From: Candidatus Enterenecus avicola
Lineage (GTDB): Bacteria > Bacillota > Clostridia > Oscillospirales > Oscillospiraceae
NCBI GenBank assembly: GCA_018715985.1
Contig: DVKO01000072.1
Coordinates: 1 to 34,706 of the forward strand
DNA length: 34,706 nt
Reading direction: 5' to 3'
Numbering within the stretch: the stretch's first letter is position 1; each line of letters starts with the position of its first letter. Shown piece after piece: positions 16,291-25,924 of this stretch. The notes beneath the pieces were generated by a model. That model did no database searches, was not told where the DNA came from, and saw nothing but the letters and a program-made list of their open reading frames with translations. The position numbers and the translations under genes were made by a program.

Positions 16291-16295
16291 CAAAT

Positions 16296-16324
16296 CGGGG
16301 GGCGGACCTGGGTCCGCCTCCCGA
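16296..16324 (+). terminator. Hairpin downstream of the RNase M5-like gene
   Basis: CGGGGGGCGGAC-ctgg-GTCCGCCTCCCG; weak T-tract. Confidence 0.5.
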
Positions 16325-16386
16325 TGAGCTGTTTTATGGGCTCACACCGGTCTCCTTCGTTGTGCTTATGGTGAGGGAAAATGAGT

Positions 16387-17034
16387 TTATTTGGTTCTCG
16401 CCTTTTTCTTCTGCTCCCCCAGGACAAGAATTGTCAGGCACCCAGCGCTGCCCAAGAGGAGAAGCCACCACACAATGGGGTGGGCGGGATCCCCGGTCTG
16501 GGGAACCACCGGGCGGGAGCCGGATGTGTCCTGAACGGTGAAGATCCACCGCAGATGCTCCTGCAACCCAGCCAGTTCATTGCCCGCCTGGGCGGATACC
16601 GCCAGTTCGACCCGAAGAGGAATGGTGGAACTGCGTGAGAATTGGCCCAACTCCACGCCGTTTTCCAGGGCGTAGCCCCCGGCGGCAGGCCCCGTGGCCA
16701 CCAGACGGTCTTGGGAGTAGACGGAGAGGGTGACCTGGGACAGGGCCTGGAGCGTGTCGTCGTCACAATCCGCTCTGAGCCAGATGGTGGCCTCGCCGTC
16801 CAGCTCCCGGGCCTGCAAAGTGATCTGTTGGGTGCGCACGTCGCCGGGCATCAAATCCTTCATGTCCGGGAGCAGATCCGTGCCCTGGGTATTGAGCAGC
16901 GTCAGGGTGTGGTCCCTGCCGTTGTACAGCACGGTGGGAGTCTGGGACGCGGTGTAGGCAAAGGCCAGGCCCATACAAGAGACGGCAACGCCCAGACAGC
17001 AGAGAAGGAGGAGGACTGATTTGAGTTTTTTCAT
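16387..17034 (-). CDS. Secreted small surface protein with C-terminal VPQTGD sorting signal, last gene of the SipW-type operon
   Basis: 215 aa; signal region MKKLKSVLLLLCCLGVAVSCMGLAFAYTASQT; C-terminus VVPQTGDPAHPIVWWLLLLGSAGCLTILVLGEQKKKARTK. Confidence 0.8.
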   Translation of the reverse strand: MKKLKSVLLLLCCLGVAVSCMGLAFAYTASQTPTVLYNGRDHTLTLLNTQGTDLLPDMKDLMPGDVRTQQITLQARELDGEATIWLRADCDDDTLQALSQVTLSVYSQDRLVATGPAAGGYALENGVELGQFSRSSTIPLRVELAVSAQAGNELAGLQEHLRWIFTVQDTSGSRPVVPQTGDPAHPIVWWLLLLGSAGCLTILVLGEQKKKARTK

Positions 17035-17047
17035 GGTATCTCCCTCC

Positions 17048-17638
17048 TTACGGTGCGGCGTCAAGGTTGAGCTGGCCTTGCTCTCCCACAGTGACCCCCC
17101 AGGCCTCCTGTACGGCGTCGGCGGGGACTGCCTGGATGGCCTGGGCCAGAACGTCTACCACAAGGGCTTTGCCGTCCGCTGTCACATCCAACTGGGTGCA
17201 GCGGTCGATGAGGGGGTCTGTGGAGGCCTCTGCATCCACGGGGAGCAAATAGTAGTACAGATCTCCGTGTTGGACCCAGTTGGGGGAGCTTCCCCAGGCG
17301 ATGGTGTAGTCCCTATCCTCGACGGGAGCCTGTGCCACCACGCTCCCATCCTCTGCTTTCCAGTAGATGGACACCGCAGCACGGATGTAGACGGGGACAT
17401 CCCCGGTATTTTTGATGGACACATCTTTCTTCTCCGTATACGGCTCCGGGAAGGTCTCCTGTACCTGGACACTGGCTGTACCCACAGAGAAGGTGTTTTC
17501 GGTGTCGTCCTTGACGGTCAGCCAGGCCACGGTGGAACCTGCGGCGCAGAGAACCAGCACAATGACCAGCACCATCAGCAGCCGTGGCCCCAGCTTGTGA
17601 GGCCCCTTGGATGGGAAAAGATGTCTGTTTTCTTGCAT
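17048..17638 (-). CDS. TasA/CalY-like secreted protein with SipW-type signal region
   Basis: MLVIVLVLCAAGSTVAWLTVKDDTENTFSVGTASVQVQETFPEP... ; the TxAWLTxxDxxxNxFxVG pattern is typical of SipW-dependent substrates; KNTGDVPVYIRA. Confidence 0.75.
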   Translation of the reverse strand: MQENRHLFPSKGPHKLGPRLLMVLVIVLVLCAAGSTVAWLTVKDDTENTFSVGTASVQVQETFPEPYTEKKDVSIKNTGDVPVYIRAAVSIYWKAEDGSVVAQAPVEDRDYTIAWGSSPNWVQHGDLYYYLLPVDAEASTDPLIDRCTQLDVTADGKALVVDVLAQAIQAVPADAVQEAWGVTVGEQGQLNLDAAP

Positions 17639-17662
17639 ATGCCCTTCTCCTTTCCCTGAACC

Positions 17663-20600
17663 TTATGGGTTTCCGGCATCTGAAAGTCCGGTTCCAGATG
17701 CACCTGTGCCGTATACGTTGTGGGCATAGGCCCAGTTGTCAAACCACTGGGAGGAGGTCTGCCGGTTGGTGACCGCCACCTCGGCGGAATCATGGTAGCT
17801 GGTGATCTGTCCCTGATACGGAGACACCGATGGGTCATAACGCCAAGCCCAGTCGGCCTGCTCCGCCACCGCCCAGCTGATTCCGTATGGAACCTCCGTG
17901 ACGGTCAGAGATTGCCCGGCCTGTACCGGCAGGGTTTGGGACTGGGCGCCCAAGGTCACAGAAATCAGGAAGGGGGCATCTGAGCCGGTTTCGTCTGTAC
18001 CGGACACCGTTTTGGTAATGGTCAGATGGCCGGTCAAGGTGAAGACGGCTTTCCCGGTGGAATCCGTGGTCTGGCTGCCGTACAGGCGGCTGGCCTGGCT
18101 GTCGCTGAGAGAGAGATCGGCGCTGCGCCGCAGGGTCAGTGTCACAGGCACATCTTCCACCGCTTCCATGTCTGCACCGGAAGGTGCATACGCCTGCTCC
18201 AGCACCGAGACGGTGAGCTGATCCTGCCGGTATTCGCTCATCACCAACACGGAGACGCTGCTGACCACATCGCTGCTGTCTTGATGTGTGGTACCCAGCC
18301 CCACCTTGACCTCCAGCCTGCTCTGATCGATGGGAGCGGTGGAACTGCTCTCCCGGTACAGGGGCTCCAGAAGAGAAGCCCTGTCCGAGACGGTAACAGC
18401 AAAGACAACGGGGTAGAGGTCCATGTTGTCAGTGATGGTCTGGTTGCAGAACTGGGCCCAACGCTGTGGCTGACCGCTCTCCGGGACATACTGCCACTCC
18501 CGGAACACCTGGTTGACGGACAGGAAACGGTCTGCGTAGAGAAACGCCTCTGTGTCAATGGGGGTGGTCACCTGGGTGAGGTTTCCCTCCTCGTCCGAGA
18601 CCTGGGTGGTGGTGACAAAGGAGCGGTTTTGGTTTTGGGAGACCAGCGCAGTGTAGACGATCTCTCCGGGCTCGTCTCCGTGATAGGTAATTTGGTAGGC
18701 CTGCTCGTATACGGCGGTGTAGGTCACTCCATCGGCGTACAGGTCCGACCCGCTCAGGGTGAAGGTGGTATTCCGGGTGACTGGAGTGCCGGGGGAGCCG
18801 GAGGTGCCGTCCTGCCTGTACCAGCCCACGAAAACATAATGGGAGTCACTTTCCACGGTCACCTGTTCCTGTGCGGTCAGGGTACCGGACTGCACATGGA
18901 GGTTGGGAATGGTTAGGCTGCGGGTATCGGTGGGAGACTGCCCGGCGGAGGTCAGAGTCCCGTCAATGTTGGACTGTACGTCCACAGCCTGGATATAAAC
19001 AGGCCAGAGTTCCATGGGGCGCTGCACCAGAGTGTCCTCGTCCACCAGGGGCAGAGCGTCTGCCTGACTGACCTGGTGGAAGGGCTCCCCGGTGTGGGGG
19101 GAAGTGGCGGTCCAGCCCAGGAATATGTAACTGCCGCCCACCCGCTGTGCGGTGTTGAGAGGGGTGGGGCTGCGGCCCAGCTGGGTGTCGGGCGCGCAGG
19201 AGGAGATGTCCAGAGAATCCCCGGTGGCTCCGCCCAGGTGGTAGATGACCACCATGGGTCGGTAGTAGGCAATGACCGTGTAAGAATTGCCCAGCTTCAG
19301 CCCGGTGACGGTGTAGGAGCCGTCCGCAGAGGGCGAGGCGTCGCTGCGATCCCCTGTGGTGTTGTTGACCACTTCCACCCGGGTGACGGTGTACAGGCCC
19401 GCGGAAGCGTCCTGCTTCATCACCGGTGTGGAGTTGTCAACCGTGAAGGAGACCGTGTAGGTGTTGCCCTCTGTGGGGGTTCGGGTGTTTTCGGTGGGGC
19501 GTGTGGGGACGTTGTAGGTGTTTGTGGCTTGGATGCCTGCCTGCTCAAAGTTGGTGGTGTAGCTGATGTCATACTGGGCGTACACCGGGTACAGATCCAT
19601 GGTGGAGGACACCTGTGTGTCACCGGGCAGCAGGTAGAGTGCGGCTGCATCGGGATGAGAGGTGACAAACTGCCCGGCCTCGTCATACCGATCCCACAGA
19701 TGGGCCCCCTCCGGGGTGAGCGTTCCGTCTCCATTCACCAGTCCGGCCCCGTCGGCCCAGCCCAGAAAGACATAGTCGTCCTTGGCCATGCCCTCAGAGG
19801 AGGGGGCGGCCTCCCAGGTGTGGGAGACGGTGGTGAGAGTTTCGGGGTACAGGTAGAAGGGGTAGGTATAGGTGCCGGCATCGTCAAACAGGGGTTGCTG
19901 GTATCGCCGGGTGACGGTGGAGAGGGCTGTTCCATCCATGGCGTGGAACCGGATGTCAGCCACAAAGCGGCCCATGTACACCAGGTTTTTTGTGGTGTCA
20001 GTGCCTGTTTCCCGGGGATTGCTGGTGCCAGAGGAATTATAGTTTTCACCGTCATAGTCCCTATTTTCAAAGGACCAGCCCACAAACCGATATCCAGAGT
20101 TTGGCGTTGCTGTTATTTCTCCGTTGTAGGAAGTTGTCCCACGGTCATACAATGCTGTGCCTGCCCCTGGAAAATCGAGGAGCAGGTCGATGTCAGCAAA
20201 GCTTTCTATGCCGGCCTTTTCGTTGTGAGAGTAGACGGGCATAGGAGCGTGGACCACCGTCTGGTCGGTGACGGGCGCACTGCCCTGGTAGCCGTCGGTA
20301 CACCAGTGGTCAAAGGTCTCATTGGAGAAGTTGAGGCCGGGAATCTGTCGAACCGGCTCTTCAAAGGTGTGCCAGAGCTGGGTGTACTGCTTGCCGTCTT
20401 TGTACTCCGAGTCAATGAGGGAACCCCAGTTGCCGCTCTGGACCATATAGGATACGGCGTATTCAAACCGGGCCAGATAGGTATGCTCCACCGTCAGGTC
20501 CACCCCGGTGAGGGTGGGGCTGACCAAGCGGCTGATACAGCGGCCGTCCTCATACCAGCCCAGGAAGCGGTAGCCGTCGGGCAGATCTCCGCCGTTGGCT

Positions 20601-23020
20601 CCGGTGAAGGACAGGGTGACGCTGGCGTTGGTTGCCCCTCCGCTCACGTCCACGGAGGCGGAGGTGGTGCCCACGCCGGGGCGGTTTGCCTGGTTTTGCT
20701 GAGACTGCTCCACGGGGTTGCCGGAGGCATCGTACCGATACCCCTCAAATTGGGTAATCACATTGGAGGCCAGTCCTGCGTACACCGGGTAGAGCTCCAT
20801 GGGCTTGGTGATGGGGGTGTCAGGCTCATAAAATTCCCCGCTGTTTTTCAAATCCTGCAACAGGGCAGGGCTGGTTGCGGCATAGGAATAGGCATCGCCC
20901 CAGGCTGAAGGGACACGGGTGGTCCAGCCCAGCAGGGAGGTGTGTCCATCCCCGGGGGCCCGGACAGGAGTGACCGAGGGAAGCGCATCCTGATAGAAGT
21001 ACCAGTCGTCGGTCATATCGTCGTCGGCACTTCCCGTCTGCTTGTCCAGAGGATGGTTTTCAAAATCGTAGAATCGTACCATCGCCTGGAGCCTGGCGGT
21101 GAACAGGTCGTTGTCCTGCCACTGGATGTGCTGGTTTTCTGCGTTGAGGGGGGTATAGAGGTTGTCGGTGGAGACGGGGTTTTTCACGGACTCGACGCGG
21201 ATCTGCTCCCCGTTGGCCCCGTATACGGGGACGTTGGAAAGGGAGGCATAGGTCTCATACAGCTGCTCAAAGTAGCTGTGAGACTGGGGGGCGGTGTCAT
21301 CCAGAACATCCGGGAAGCGATACCAGCCGTACAGGCGGTAGCGCTGGTCGGTGGGGGTGTAGCGCAGAGTCAGCGCATTCTCGTTGGCGTAGACGCCCTG
21401 CACCGCAAAGGTGTAGGGGTCGGTGGTGGACACCGATGTGCCCACCAGGGCGGTGCCGTCAATGGTCACGGTGCCGCCGCCGGGAAAGTCCAGGGTGGCG
21501 GCCACCGAACTGCCGTGGACCGGAATGCCCAGTTCATAGTCCATGACCCACTTGTTTACGTGGGAGCCGTCGGCGTTGCCGGAGCGGGCATCGTAGTCGC
21601 TGGTACGGGGGGTGGTGCCGGTAAAATCAAAGTCAAAGGTCTCCCACGCCTCCCGGTTGGTGTAGAGAGTGTCGCTCCAGGGGCCAAAGCTGCCGTTGGA
21701 GCTGATCTCGCCGGTCAAATTGTCTCCCAGCGTGGTCATGGCGCGTTCGTTGCCGGCGTTGACACTGGCTTTGAAGAAAGAGCCGTAGATATTGGCCCGG
21801 GCGGCGTCAGATTCGCCCTGCCAAATATCCGCTACACCGGAGACGTTGACATCCCGTTGAATGATGGGGATGACCAGCAGGGCGTTGTACTGATAGGAGG
21901 TGGCCCGCCCGGCATAGTGGCAGCGGGTAATGGAACAGTTGTCGTCCCACACCTCGGCGGTAATGCCGCCAATATGGCCCACATTTATTCCCAGAACGGA
22001 GACATAGGTGGCGCAGTAGTAGTTCATCTCCGCGGTGGAGAAACAGTCGATGATGGCGGTGCCCGTGTCTCCGTCTCCGTTGTCGTTGGACCAGATGCGC
22101 CCGGCGATGCCGCCCACGTACAGGGTATTGCCGCCAATGGCGCCCACTGCCACATCGTAATAGATCTTGATGAGGGTTTTTCCCGCTGTATCACTGGCGG
22201 AGGTTCCTGTGGGGGCGTTTTCGTCATAGGGGGTGTCGCCGATGACCCGGGAGTACTCGATGGTGCTGCCCTCTGCGCAGCCCACCAGCCCGCCCAGGGC
22301 CAGAGGCTTCCCGGCCAGAGCGGCCACACCTGAGGTGTTGTTGGAGCGGATCCAGCAGTTGCGCACCTCGCAGTCGTACATGGTGGATTCGTTGATCTGC
22401 CCGGCAATTCCGCCGCCTCGAATGCCCAAGTCGGTGCCGATGAGCAGGACGTTGTCCGCTGCTTCCAGCTTCAGGGCGCTGTTCTTTACAGTGACGTGGC
22501 TGAACAGGGTGTTGTTGGCATACCCTACCACGATGCCGCCCCGTATATCGCTCTCAATGTCTGCGGACTCCAAGGTGAGGTTTTGGATGACGGCGCCGTC
22601 GGTGGCGGCAAACAGCCCGGTGTCTGCCCGGGGTTCATTCCACACCGTGTGGTAGCGCAGGCCATAGATGGTGTGGCCGTTGCCGTCAAAGGTGCCCTTG
22701 AAGGGGTTCTCCTGGCTGCCAAAGATACAGGTGGCGTAGGCGATTTCACTGTCTGAAGAGGTGTCGGTCACCACGGGGACCTGGATGTCACGGGTCAGCT
22801 TCAGTGTCACACCTTCAAAATTTTTGCTGCCGCCGGCCTCTGTGGTAAAGAGCGACTGGGCTTTCAGCTCACTGTAATCGGAAATCTCGATGACCTTGCC
22901 CTGGGCGTCGGCGTAGAGGTGCAGTGGAAACAGGCCCAACAGCAGCGCTGTGGCCAGACAGACGGACAGCCCCCTGCGCAGTGACGAGAAAAACGGCTTG
23001 TGTTGTCTCCTCTGTTTCAT
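17663..23020 (-). CDS. Giant secreted adhesin: GLUG-like beta-helix repeats, multiple InlB B-like repeats, C-terminal Cna-B/SpaA-like domain
   Basis: 1785 aa; signal peptide; FKGTFDGNGHTIYGL and GGIAGxxxx repeats; YRFLGWYEDG/YVFLGWADG/YIFLGWTAT with MELYPVY/MDLYPVY repeats; LTITKTVSGTDETGSDAPFLISVTL...VTNRQT; no LPxTG. Confidence 0.88.
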   Translation of the reverse strand: MKQRRQHKPFFSSLRRGLSVCLATALLLGLFPLHLYADAQGKVIEISDYSELKAQSLFTTEAGGSKNFEGVTLKLTRDIQVPVVTDTSSDSEIAYATCIFGSQENPFKGTFDGNGHTIYGLRYHTVWNEPRADTGLFAATDGAVIQNLTLESADIESDIRGGIVVGYANNTLFSHVTVKNSALKLEAADNVLLIGTDLGIRGGGIAGQINESTMYDCEVRNCWIRSNNTSGVAALAGKPLALGGLVGCAEGSTIEYSRVIGDTPYDENAPTGTSASDTAGKTLIKIYYDVAVGAIGGNTLYVGGIAGRIWSNDNGDGDTGTAIIDCFSTAEMNYYCATYVSVLGINVGHIGGITAEVWDDNCSITRCHYAGRATSYQYNALLVIPIIQRDVNVSGVADIWQGESDAARANIYGSFFKASVNAGNERAMTTLGDNLTGEISSNGSFGPWSDTLYTNREAWETFDFDFTGTTPRTSDYDARSGNADGSHVNKWVMDYELGIPVHGSSVAATLDFPGGGTVTIDGTALVGTSVSTTDPYTFAVQGVYANENALTLRYTPTDQRYRLYGWYRFPDVLDDTAPQSHSYFEQLYETYASLSNVPVYGANGEQIRVESVKNPVSTDNLYTPLNAENQHIQWQDNDLFTARLQAMVRFYDFENHPLDKQTGSADDDMTDDWYFYQDALPSVTPVRAPGDGHTSLLGWTTRVPSAWGDAYSYAATSPALLQDLKNSGEFYEPDTPITKPMELYPVYAGLASNVITQFEGYRYDASGNPVEQSQQNQANRPGVGTTSASVDVSGGATNASVTLSFTGANGGDLPDGYRFLGWYEDGRCISRLVSPTLTGVDLTVEHTYLARFEYAVSYMVQSGNWGSLIDSEYKDGKQYTQLWHTFEEPVRQIPGLNFSNETFDHWCTDGYQGSAPVTDQTVVHAPMPVYSHNEKAGIESFADIDLLLDFPGAGTALYDRGTTSYNGEITATPNSGYRFVGWSFENRDYDGENYNSSGTSNPRETGTDTTKNLVYMGRFVADIRFHAMDGTALSTVTRRYQQPLFDDAGTYTYPFYLYPETLTTVSHTWEAAPSSEGMAKDDYVFLGWADGAGLVNGDGTLTPEGAHLWDRYDEAGQFVTSHPDAAALYLLPGDTQVSSTMDLYPVYAQYDISYTTNFEQAGIQATNTYNVPTRPTENTRTPTEGNTYTVSFTVDNSTPVMKQDASAGLYTVTRVEVVNNTTGDRSDASPSADGSYTVTGLKLGNSYTVIAYYRPMVVIYHLGGATGDSLDISSCAPDTQLGRSPTPLNTAQRVGGSYIFLGWTATSPHTGEPFHQVSQADALPLVDEDTLVQRPMELWPVYIQAVDVQSNIDGTLTSAGQSPTDTRSLTIPNLHVQSGTLTAQEQVTVESDSHYVFVGWYRQDGTSGSPGTPVTRNTTFTLSGSDLYADGVTYTAVYEQAYQITYHGDEPGEIVYTALVSQNQNRSFVTTTQVSDEEGNLTQVTTPIDTEAFLYADRFLSVNQVFREWQYVPESGQPQRWAQFCNQTITDNMDLYPVVFAVTVSDRASLLEPLYRESSSTAPIDQSRLEVKVGLGTTHQDSSDVVSSVSVLVMSEYRQDQLTVSVLEQAYAPSGADMEAVEDVPVTLTLRRSADLSLSDSQASRLYGSQTTDSTGKAVFTLTGHLTITKTVSGTDETGSDAPFLISVTLGAQSQTLPVQAGQSLTVTEVPYGISWAVAEQADWAWRYDPSVSPYQGQITSYHDSAEVAVTNRQTSSQWFDNWAYAHNVYGTGASGTGLSDAGNP

Positions 23021-23032
23021 GGTGCTTCCTCC

Positions 23033-23611
23033 TCACGGCTCAGGCCACCCGGTGGCGGAGAGAACATCGGTGGTGTTGTTTTCACTCTGGACGGCCTGCG
23101 CGTCCACATCCAGATCGAACTGGCTGCCCGGATATGTCTGCGTAATGGAATTGATATCCTGAAAGATGACCTGAGTCATCAGCGCGTTCGTTGTCTCATG
23201 GGGGGTGAGGATCTGCTTGTAGTAGTACCAACCGTCCCGGTAGACCCAGTCGGCCTCGTTGAGCTGATAGGAGACCAGATCCCGGGTGTCGAATGCCTTG
23301 CCGTCAGCTGTTGTCCCCACCATATGCAGCGCCACTCGGACGTACATGGGGTGCTCCCCCGTGTTTTCCACCCGGAGGATCCGGCTGACGGCGCTGTGAG
23401 AGGTGATGTCAAAGGTGCTGTCCTGGGCGACTGGGACCTCCTCCCCGTGGGAATTGAGGGTGGTCTGCCGCAGGGCCAGCTGTAAGGCTCCGAAGGTCAG
23501 AATGTTGTCCGCAGTGGTCTGGCGTGTCAGAAATGCCGTCGTGGCGGCCGTCAGGCAGAGGGCCAGAACCGCGGCAAGGAAGATGCAAAGGGGGATGATC
23601 CGTTTTTTCAT
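23033..23611 (-). CDS. TasA/CalY-like secreted protein
   Basis: MKKRIIPLCIFLAAVLALCLTAATTAFLTRQTTADNILTFGALQLALRQT; RVENTGEHPMYVRVALHMV; ~192 aa. Confidence 0.7.
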   Translation of the reverse strand: MKKRIIPLCIFLAAVLALCLTAATTAFLTRQTTADNILTFGALQLALRQTTLNSHGEEVPVAQDSTFDITSHSAVSRILRVENTGEHPMYVRVALHMVGTTADGKAFDTRDLVSYQLNEADWVYRDGWYYYKQILTPHETTNALMTQVIFQDINSITQTYPGSQFDLDVDAQAVQSENNTTDVLSATGWPEP

Positions 23612-23719
23612 GTGCCTGGCCTCCCGCAATAGTCATTGGCTGAAAAGGGAACAACCGGAGGGCGGGGTTTCCCCAGCCCCCCGGTTGTCAGGGATTTTAC
23701 ACGGATGCAGTTTTGTCGG

Positions 23720-24454
23720 TTAAGGCTCGGAAGAAGGCACCAGCGCAGCGATGGCGGCGTTTTTGATGGTGTCCGCAGGAATGGCGGTGCCGTCGCCGTC
23801 GGTGGCCTGGTGGATGAAGCAGGAGACGGTAATGGACTTGTCGCCTTCAATGTTCAAATCCGCGGTGGAAGCGTTGTCACTCACCGTGACCTGGGTAAAT
23901 ACGGCCCTGGAGGTCCAGACATCGTTGTCCTTGGATGCCTTGAGGATCCCGGAGCTGTCTTCCCCCATGTACTTGAACAGACCGCCCACATAGGTGCGAT
24001 CGGCGGGGCCGGGTGTGGTCTGTCCGTCAACCGCCTGCCAGGCGTCGTTCAGCTTGAAGTAGACCGATTGATTCAGGAAGGGATTTTCCACGTAGACATA
24101 GATCACGGCGTCCTCACTGCCTGCGCCAATGCCCACATAGGGATCTTTGTACAGGGAGCCGCCGGGGACCAGCTTGTGCTCCGCAGTGGTATCCCAGGAG
24201 GGCTCGATGATGTAGCCAGATACACTGAGGTTGGGTTTTTCGGGATCGGGGTCAACACCGGGATCGGGGTCAGGGGTCTCGGGTTTGTCCGGGTCCGGTA
24301 CATTGAAGTTGCCCACGGTGAAGGTGTTGGTGACGGAGTCCTCGGCGGTCAGCCATGCCATGGTACCCGCAGTGATACAGGCCACCAGGGTCAGGCCCAG
24401 GACCGAGAGCAGAAGAGCTTTTTTTCGATTCTTCTTTTGTGTCTGCGCAGTCAT
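23720..24454 (-). CDS. TasA/CalY-like secreted protein with SipW-type signal and Pro/Asp linker
   Basis: MTAQTQKKNRKKALLLSVLGLTLVACITAGTMAWLTAEDSVTNTFTVGNFNVPDPDKPETPDPDPGVDPDPEKP; DAVIYVYVENPF. Confidence 0.82.
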   Translation of the reverse strand: MTAQTQKKNRKKALLLSVLGLTLVACITAGTMAWLTAEDSVTNTFTVGNFNVPDPDKPETPDPDPGVDPDPEKPNLSVSGYIIEPSWDTTAEHKLVPGGSLYKDPYVGIGAGSEDAVIYVYVENPFLNQSVYFKLNDAWQAVDGQTTPGPADRTYVGGLFKYMGEDSSGILKASKDNDVWTSRAVFTQVTVSDNASTADLNIEGDKSITVSCFIHQATDGDGTAIPADTIKNAAIAALVPSSEP

Positions 24455-24470
24455 GTCAATACACTCCTTT

Positions 24471-25012
24471 TTATATTCCGTTTTTGGTGGACGAAGTGGG
24501 CGAAGGGGGCAGCTTGTCCAGCAGCAAGGACACCCCAACCACCACCGCCAGAAGGGCCAAGAGCAGGTACATTCCAGGCGGAGTGGTGCAGAACTGATTG
24601 ACTTGCCCCAACATGGGGAGACAGAGCACGGGCGTTCCAATCAGGTTTTCAAAGGGAACCGGTGCTGCATCCGGCAAAATATTTCCCTGTTCGTCCCGGT
24701 TGTTGATGCCCTGGGTGTAGAATTGGCGCGTCTCAGCGTCAATCCGCCGCACTTGGTGGGTGGCGATGCTGTCACTGCCGGGCATGGTAAAGGTGATGGT
24801 CTGTCCCACCTGAACCTGTTCCGGAGAGACGGAGCGGACATAGATCAGCGCTCCCACCGGGTATTCCGGCTCCATACTTCCGCTGGTCACCACAAAGAGC
24901 TGAAAGCCCAGCAGCCTGGGTACCCCAAAGGCAAAGAGAAGTACCGCAGCCAGCGCCAGCAAAATAAGGGTCAGAATACTCCAAAAGGTTCGGAAAAAGC
25001 CGATAACGTCAC
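24471..25012 (-). CDS. sipW: SipW-type (ER-like, Ser/His) signal peptidase I; start codon unresolved
   Basis: TSGSMEPEYPVGALIYVRSVSPEQVQVGQTITFTMPGSDSIATHQVRRI (Ser...His dyad) flanked by TMs. The best SD-positioned GTG (25012) is out of frame with the body. Confidence 0.82.
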
Positions 25013-25124
25013 TTCCTTCCTCCGTATATGCTTGACCCGTATGGGAATACGACAGAATAGAGTGAACGAGTTTCCACAAAAAACACTCTCGCTTCAGTGC
25101 ATCTTGCACAATTAAAGTGTAAAT

Positions 25125-25153
25125 ATGATAGCATATATTTGAAGAAATGTCAA
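25125..25153 (-). promoter_or_regulatory. Consensus SigA promoter for the sipW operon
   Basis: Minus strand TTGACA-17 nt-TATCAT, about 110 nt upstream of GGAGGAAGG SD. Confidence 0.85.
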
Positions 25154-25286: not shown

Positions 25287-25622
25287 TTAGTTCATATCCA
25301 AATTGGACAGCTGGTGCCGCTGATCTCTGCGGCCATAGATGATGCCGAAGACTGGAACCTTCTTAGCTTCCTCGTCTACCCAGAAATAGACCAGGTAGTT
25401 TTTGACTGGGAGCTTATGTACGCCCTGACTGTGCCAGGGTTCCTCTTCGGTAAGGGGCACACGGTTGGGAAACTGATCCAGAGATGCGATTTCCTTTTCC
25501 AGAGTGTCCAGCATCTTCATGGCAGTGCCGGGAGCTTGCAGAGTGTAGCTGATATAGCTGATAAGCTCTCTCAGTTGCTCTTGGGCCTGCGGTGTGATTT
25601 TTACTGTGTATTTTTCAGGCAT
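25287..25622 (-). CDS. RelE/ParE-family toxin
   Basis: 111 aa; YTVKITPQAQEQLRELISYIS...KLPVKNYLVYFWVDEEAKKVPVFGIIYGRRD; directly after a RelB/DinJ-like gene. Confidence 0.88.
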   Translation of the reverse strand: MPEKYTVKITPQAQEQLRELISYISYTLQAPGTAMKMLDTLEKEIASLDQFPNRVPLTEEEPWHSQGVHKLPVKNYLVYFWVDEEAKKVPVFGIIYGRRDQRHQLSNLDMN

Positions 25623-25924
25623 TACTGCATCTCCCGTCTCAGATCTGCAAATACATCAGACGCAGCACGGGATTTATCTGCCTTGGCTTCGTTCATACCA
25701 CGCGCCATCATTGCATGGAAAGCGGCCTCGTCCATCTCGTCCCGGGCGACCGGCACAGCGGGAACGGCAAGAGAGAACGGAATGCTGCGAGTCATGATGA
25801 TCTGCTTATAGAGCGTGTTGATCACAACGGAAGCAGGGATGCCCAGCATCTCCATAATCGCTTCAGCTTGCTCTTTAACGCTCGGTTCGACACGAGCCAT
25901 TACATTAGCGGTCTTAGTTGCCAT
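25622..25924 (-). CDS. RelB/DinJ-family antitoxin
   Basis: 100 aa; NVMARVEPSVKEQAEAIMEMLGIPASVVINTLYKQIIMTRSIPFSLAVP. Confidence 0.9.
   Translation of the reverse strand: MATKTANVMARVEPSVKEQAEAIMEMLGIPASVVINTLYKQIIMTRSIPFSLAVPAVPVARDEMDEAAFHAMMARGMNEAKADKSRAASDVFADLRREMQ

Follow-up and report, generated by a model that had tools for sequence, protein, structure and literature searches.

A conserved SipW-type operon with a candidate wall-anchored subunit and a giant surface protein in Candidatus Enterenecus avicola and other gut bacteria

The 34,706-nucleotide contig DVKO01000072.1 of Candidatus Enterenecus avicola (here called the window) carries six minus-strand open reading frames (ORFs), g1 to g6, at positions 16387-25079. 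Every frame is open, and the products are a SipW-type signal peptidase (g1), three small secreted proteins (g2, g3 and g5), a giant surface protein (g4) and a small protein with a sorting signal (g6). Because the small proteins fit the BsaA family and not TasA or CalY, this operon is best filed, on its sequence, as a variant of the SipW-dependent fibre operons. What is new is that a SipW core is conserved in combination with an anchored BsaA/TasA-like protein as well as with interchangeable giants that have one end in common. We consider it fairly probable that SipW-processed subunits polymerise, that g6 ties the base of the fibre to the cell wall and that g4 docks by its terminal domain. A first-pass annotation had described six same-strand genes behind one consensus promoter, and their positions and order were confirmed on the window sequence (Table 1). 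It had also not recognised the arrangement as a named system. No open-literature paper on the arrangement was found, most subscription papers lying outside the coverage, but the operon extends systems that are already known.

The order sipW-[g2]n-g3-giant-g5-g6 is seen repeatedly in gut Clostridia, as well as in two Coriobacteriia. The complete set in identical order, with g4 at full length, is present in Candidatus Fournierella merdigallinarum (L002), Clostridium sp. Marseille-P3244 (L003), Paraeggerthella hongkongensis (L004) and Collinsella stercoris (L005), where the g4 homologues are 61, 39, 36 and 35% identical, respectively. Full-length g4 thus occurs outside the host genus in four genera from two phyla. 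Since the entire order is kept in other genera, the six-gene layout is not a product of chance; the conservation also upholds the first-pass annotation on the main point by which it could have been refuted, a gene order not conserved in any related genome. In other Clostridia the core is often accompanied by additional SipW-substrate-like subunit genes, and at two loci (L008 and L028) the giant is located behind the small genes and not between them.

When g6 was used as a query against 151 genomes of the same family, 11 were positive, the window's own included. The succession of terminal domain, g5 and g6 was found in all seven of the others whose contig was long enough and whose g6 score was usable; of the last three positives, two are at contig ends and one has a different layout. 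Among 391 genomes of the class there were 20 positives from many families, and six of the eight further loci above 150 bits again have the terminal domain, g5 and g6 in succession. More distant relatives of g6 occur together with SipW and with BsaA-like genes in arrangements that differ from this one. SipW-type peptidases were also seen in Candidatus Saccharibacteria (L020-L025 and L029). One of these loci, L024, has two consecutive sipW-g3-g6 sets, which extend the core to the Patescibacteria.

According to Pfam, the 1785-amino-acid g4 protein has a beta-helix/GLUG-like N-terminus and a DUF7601 domain at its C-terminus, together with divergent InlB-B repeats, as befits the giant surface protein that had been annotated. 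Its 1785-residue sequence contains no sorting signal or wall anchor, and none of 21 giants with a readable C-terminus ends in a sorting signal. Elsewhere in the Clostridia the core is paired with different giants, ranging from about 900 to over 1900 amino acids in length, on which Pfam recognises vWA, GH20, BNR, MucBP, SHIRT and SpaA domains and InlB repeats. The only part common to these otherwise unrelated proteins is a terminal domain of roughly 110 amino acids, with a W[SA]WRY motif and an N...W...N tail, found on giants that have a complete, readable end and most divergent in L028. As a query against the same 151 genomes, this domain was followed directly by g5 in nine of nine strong genomes (again counting the window's own). 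The g6 and terminal-domain tests draw on one family sampling and are therefore independent in query, not in genomes. Four weaker DUF7601 matches in this set comprise three in proteins with a PxTGD anchor of their own and one at an ORF end without a PxTGD-type tail. Another secreted giant, of 1426 amino acids, is encoded elsewhere in the host genome (L097:6941-11221; G000:C42), followed a few kb later by a sortase gene, and is possibly a second surface locus.

The lack of an anchor on the giants would also fit an ordinary SipW/BsaA biofilm-matrix operon, wherein the adhesin is co-transcribed but physically separate, and is either released or retained in the matrix with no specific docking. Indeed, the SipW-BsaA fibres of Clostridium perfringens form a matrix that is mostly outside the cell fraction and is independent of sortase (PMC7395162). 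However, a separate adhesin would not be expected to bring with it a terminal domain that alone is common to unrelated giants and is linked to g5 in every strong case. In addition, DUF7601 proteins elsewhere are mostly self-anchored, and the sorting signal is on g6 in most relatives. These considerations cause us to regard this explanation as unlikely, although it deserves to be taken seriously.

The g1 protein matches the model of endoplasmic reticulum (ER)/archaeal-type S26 peptidases (TIGR02228) at 1.9e-23 and the SipW equivalog model NF046067 at 6.3e-16, which is under the Bacillus-tuned cut-off of the latter. Its Ser and His are invariant in 12 relatives, and a profile search of the PDB retrieves SEC11, while the other profiles gave weak, meaningless PDB matches only. 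The operon therefore encodes its own SipW-type peptidase, as had been annotated. The g2 protein clears the cut-off of the SipW-dependent signal model TIGR04088 at the sole such place in the genome, and g5 falls just under it, which agrees with the earlier claim of several candidate substrates. The claim that the small proteins are TasA/CalY-like was not upheld, since g2, g3 and g5 give no match to the curated TasA or CalY models and have affinity instead to the C. perfringens BsaA family. The BsaA model TIGR04090 is matched by 19 of 21 aligned g3 members and by 12 of 15 g5 relatives, TIGR04088 is matched by 9 of 21 g3 relatives, and the g3 and g5 profiles are clearly homologous to each other (99.6%).

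The VPQTGD motif of g6 is followed by a transmembrane helix and a basic KKKARTK tail, an architecture of the PxTG type for sortase anchoring, and the position of the motif is kept in most g6 relatives. There are two sortases in the host genome, both on contigs other than the window. Profile library scans gave no family match for g6, and the curated LPXTG model was silent on it. Nevertheless, the g6 profile matches the g3 profile (95.8%), and the AlphaFold model of g6, with a predicted local distance difference test (pLDDT) value of 84.5, matches an archaeal bundling pilin, FimA, TasA (5of2) and the archaeal 0406 filament. By profile and predicted fold, then, g6 is a diverged BsaA/TasA-like subunit. 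The sorting signal of the small protein first annotated as a candidate wall anchor is thus borne out, and the annotation is corrected in that the protein is also BsaA/TasA-like itself.

In the mechanism that we favour, g1 would process g2, g3 and g5 by cutting their special signal peptides, and the exported subunits would polymerise outside the cell, probably by TasA-like donor-strand exchange, with g2 as the most likely major (bulk) subunit. Sortase would fix g6, which is of broadly the same fold family, to the wall via VPQTGD, and g6 might then serve as the base or nucleator of the fibre. The g4 protein, a putative adhesin, would be exported by an ordinary signal peptide and, being anchorless, would attach through its terminal domain to neighbouring BsaA-like subunits, with g5 and perhaps g3 as candidate partners. 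A hairpin between g2 and g3 (discussed below) might make the peptidase and the bulk subunit more abundant than the giant and the anchor. This mechanism is supported by the model matches of peptidase and substrates, the conserved gene order, the common terminal domain on anchorless giants, its co-occurrence with g5, the fold and profile of g6 and the two sortases. It is also supported by the literature, wherein SipW is required in C. perfringens for export of BsaA, which makes filaments (PMC7395162), and TasA polymerises by means of an N-terminal donor strand (PMC9674648).

Several observations weigh against it. A profile check proposed with the first-pass annotation succeeded for g2, but g3 and g5 reach only 27.1 and 29.6 bits against the TIGR04090 cut-off of 60, and these are partial matches. 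We therefore describe both as BsaA-family homologues, as judged by profile similarity, and do not file them as members. What g2 and g5 have in common by profile comparison is confined to the signal and the N-terminal stretch after it. The proposed structure check was similarly divided: the g6 model finds TasA and the other matches at probabilities of 0.97-1.00 but at low TM-scores of 0.29-0.35, and the g5 model (pLDDT 86.8) finds general immunoglobulin (Ig)-like folds only. Furthermore, g6 is longer in three relatives (L090-L092) and lacks the sorting signal there, and the remaining two class-level loci above 150 bits, both in one genome, have g3-g6 with no giant or g5 preceding g6.

Perhaps the function resides in the giant, which the small BsaA-like proteins would serve as non-polymerising secretion or folding partners and as a wall clamp, with no long fibre being formed. 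Such a role would suit the fixed positions of g3, g5 and g6 around the giant, usually with one copy of each, and in TasA systems small partners such as TapA are reported to be chaperones (PMC10151520). It does not readily account for the g2 family, which is present one- to sixfold in relatives, because multiplication of g2-type substrates is expected for fibre subunits. Moreover, relatives from both the BsaA and the TasA families polymerise (PMC7395162, PMC9674648). We judge a giant served by such partners to be quite improbable.

There is only one genome with full-length g4 among the 42 of the genus, and a high score was obtained in 0 of the 150 other same-family genomes drawn. Full-length g4 was accordingly rejected as a family-wide trait, the remaining family matches being partial and confined to generic GLUG-like regions or the terminal domain. 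In a tree of concatenated g1, g3, g5 and g6, the five g4-type operons fall on one side of a branch with 100/100 support, apart from the operons of the window's family. This grouping, together with the patchy g4, suggests that core and cargo move as a unit, and the operon probably either arrived by horizontal transfer or was retained very patchily. Composition is indecisive on horizontal origin because the operon genes, with a G+C content of 0.55-0.62, fall between the left flank (0.64) and the right flank (0.58). The host genome is a 1.74-Mb draft of 145 contigs, of which the window is one entire contig.

The absence of full-length g4 from the 41 other genus genomes might also be taken to indicate a degenerate or recently captured cluster that provides no working system in the host strain, and the ambiguous sipW start codon points in the same direction. 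Candidate starts for g1 span 25079 to about 25004, and this interval offers no in-frame ATG or GTG. The TTG at 25079 is the nearest in-frame start codon, while a good ribosome site, GGAGG (25022-25018), sits before an out-of-frame GTG at 25012. The g1 gene may start at the TTG at 25079 or at an unusual start codon, or it may be affected by a sequence error. However, degeneration is already largely refuted by six intact frames, and it is also at odds with the identical order in four other genera and with the fully supported clustering of the core proteins with other g4-type operons. It strikes us as very improbable.

The gaps from g1-g2 to g5-g6 measure 16, 108, 12, 24 and 13 nucleotides. The tight spacing first reported therefore holds for four gaps of 12-24 nucleotides, but not for the g2-g3 gap, which contains a strong hairpin followed by CCCTTTTC. 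The fold of this entire gap has a z value of -2.1 relative to shuffled sequences, and the hairpin may serve as a partial terminator or affect mRNA stability. Relatives likewise have the longest gap of the operon ahead of g3, with a median of 138 nucleotides versus 45, 54, 3 and -2.5 elsewhere. A universal intrinsic terminator at this junction was rejected because a hairpin with a U-run is present at just 7 of 25 junctions.

There are nine relatives that have in common an RNA element of 80 nucleotides with two hairpins, located before g3 at the junction between subunit and giant. Both-sided changes occur in 18 of its 28 pairs, pairing holds in 94% of the cells, and none of 500 shuffles was as good. 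In an alternative pairing, the shorter hairpin extends into the first arm of the longer one; this arrangement is 95% paired, covaries too, and is mutually exclusive with the first. The nine sequences were chosen for looking alike, and thus the alignment leans towards structure. A model built from the nine re-finds the element in L008, L014 and L017 and has its best match at the operon in 11 of 12 genomes tested, with overlapping echoes on the opposite strand and, in one tested genome, two further weak places. No Rfam family was found at the element in the four loci searched. The element gives no match in the window at E values up to 1, and its sequence is absent from the other g4-type loci too, although a strong hairpin occupies the g2-g3 position in three of the five g4-type loci (the window among the five). 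Hence, the window hairpin is equivalent by position only. We would guess that the role of the RNA element is attenuation or mRNA stability.

At four loci (L006, L009, L010 and L012), a tyrosine recombinase gene precedes the operon, at a distance of about 0.2-1 kb from sipW. It is flanked by one family of inverted repeats, TTCGCAGAGTT-N4-ACTCTG, of which those genomes hold few further copies, and the contig end of L006 coincides exactly with an inverted repeat. This arrangement suggests phase variation by an invertible switch. The window has neither a matching repeat nor a recombinase near its promoter. A serine recombinase is encoded in the closest relative (L002:25-1689), at a contig end and approximately 90 nucleotides upstream of the sipW frame.

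Taken further, the operon may represent a modular display platform that is widespread among Gram-positive bacteria of the gut, an idea that we put forward as tentative. A fibre core of the SipW type, with a TasA-like base anchored in the wall, would carry giant cargo of exchangeable kinds (adhesins, vWA proteins and enzymes with GH20 domains or BNR repeats) through one conserved C-terminal domain, at a ratio set by structured RNA and, in some hosts, under an invertible recombinase on/off switch. SipW fibres have so far been studied chiefly as biofilm matrix, whereas here the SipW machinery seems to be coupled to a wall anchor and to interchangeable giants, some with domains that possibly act on host glycans. 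If true, this would be a further route, beside sortase pili and type IV pili, by which adhesins and enzymes are held off the cells of gut Gram-positive bacteria. Because of the common terminal domain, the idea can be put to a direct test, and numerous large orphan surface proteins could become assignable to a fibre.

The predicted promoter, TTGACA-17-TATCAT, is the top sigma-70-type match in the scanned 10.6-kb region (11 of 12 positions). At its 3' end, the operon has a GC-rich hairpin in common with a convergent DUF4093 gene. A ParE/RelB-type toxin-antitoxin pair (25287-25924) is located directly upstream of the promoter on the strand of the operon.

Table 1. Coordinates of features in the window and, where a locus number is given, in other genomes
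Feature	Position	Strand	Basis
Promoter, sigma-70-type	25125-25153	-	consensus match only
g1, SipW-type (ER/archaeal-type, Ser-His) signal peptidase	24471-25079	-	TIGR02228, NF046067 and PDB SEC11 matches
g2, SipW-substrate protein, candidate major fibre subunit	23720-24454	-	TIGR04088 above cut-off
GC-rich hairpin then CCCTTTTC, g2-g3 gap	23650-23689	-	folding free energy -33.9 kcal/mol
g3, BsaA-family, SipW-type signal, candidate adaptor/minor subunit	23033-23611	-	partial TIGR04090 match
g4, 1785-amino-acid giant surface protein	17663-23020	-	Pfam matches; full-length homologues in four other genera
g4 C-terminal domain, DUF7601-like, candidate docking domain	17663-18031	-	alignments; g5 co-occurrence downstream
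g5, BsaA-family, SipW-type signal, Ig-like beta-sandwich model	17048-17638	-	partial TIGR04090 match; model
g6, diverged BsaA/TasA-like protein, ordinary signal peptide, C-terminal sorting signal, candidate wall-fixed base	16387-17034	-	model; profile match
VPQTGD sorting motif of g6	16489-16506	-	sequence
Hairpin, GC-rich, terminator-like, between convergent g6 and DUF4093 gene	16294-16325	.	pattern scan and fold
RNA element	L006:5363-5444, L009:14767-14843, L010:13408-13488, L011:13408-13482, L012:13986-14065, L013:14732-14813, L016:4416-4497, L033:11532-11613, L037:11719-11796		in nine-sequence alignment
RNA element	L008:3441-3514, L014:12751-12847, L017:12921-13019		found by model
Recombinase and inverted repeats	L006:1-1524, L009:7590-9160, L010:8420-9887, L012:7643-9217		

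The operon can be compared with several known systems. Sortase-assembled pili of Gram-positive bacteria are alike in the C-terminal sorting signal for wall anchoring, and the giants consist partly of pilin-like domains (SpaA, DUF7601 and vWA). Unlike in such pili, the sorting signal is on g6 only, the sortases are on other contigs and the subunits have SipW-type signals. A sortase-assembled pilus was rejected by the features tested, because there is neither a backbone pilin with a sorting signal nor an adjacent pilus sortase.

The g6 model matches donor-strand filaments of archaea, namely the bundling pili (7ueg) and the Sulfolobus 0406 filament (7pnb), although the similarity is weak, and it matches Bacillus TasA (5of2). 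The tapA-sipW-tasA operon of B. subtilis and the sipW-tasA-calY operon of B. cereus are also alike in having a dedicated SipW, SipW-type signals and beta-sandwich fibre proteins, but the small proteins of the window match no TasA or CalY model. To our knowledge, these Bacillus operons have neither a giant protein nor a sortase-type anchor, and we know of no sorting signal or giant partner for the two archaeal filaments.

The sipW-bsaABCRSD operon of C. perfringens (PMC7395162) differs in that no giant with such a terminal domain and no sorting-signal protein has been described for it, the sequences of BsaB, BsaC and BsaD being outside this comparison. A two-component system of its own also belongs to it, and the sortase gene next to it is dispensable (PMC7395162). 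As in the window, however, a SipW-type peptidase comes first and BsaA-family secreted proteins follow. A predicted terminator after bsaA, the first subunit gene, yields a short sipW-bsaA transcript and a long read-through transcript (PMC7395162), and its position within the operon is comparable to that of the g2-g3 hairpin.

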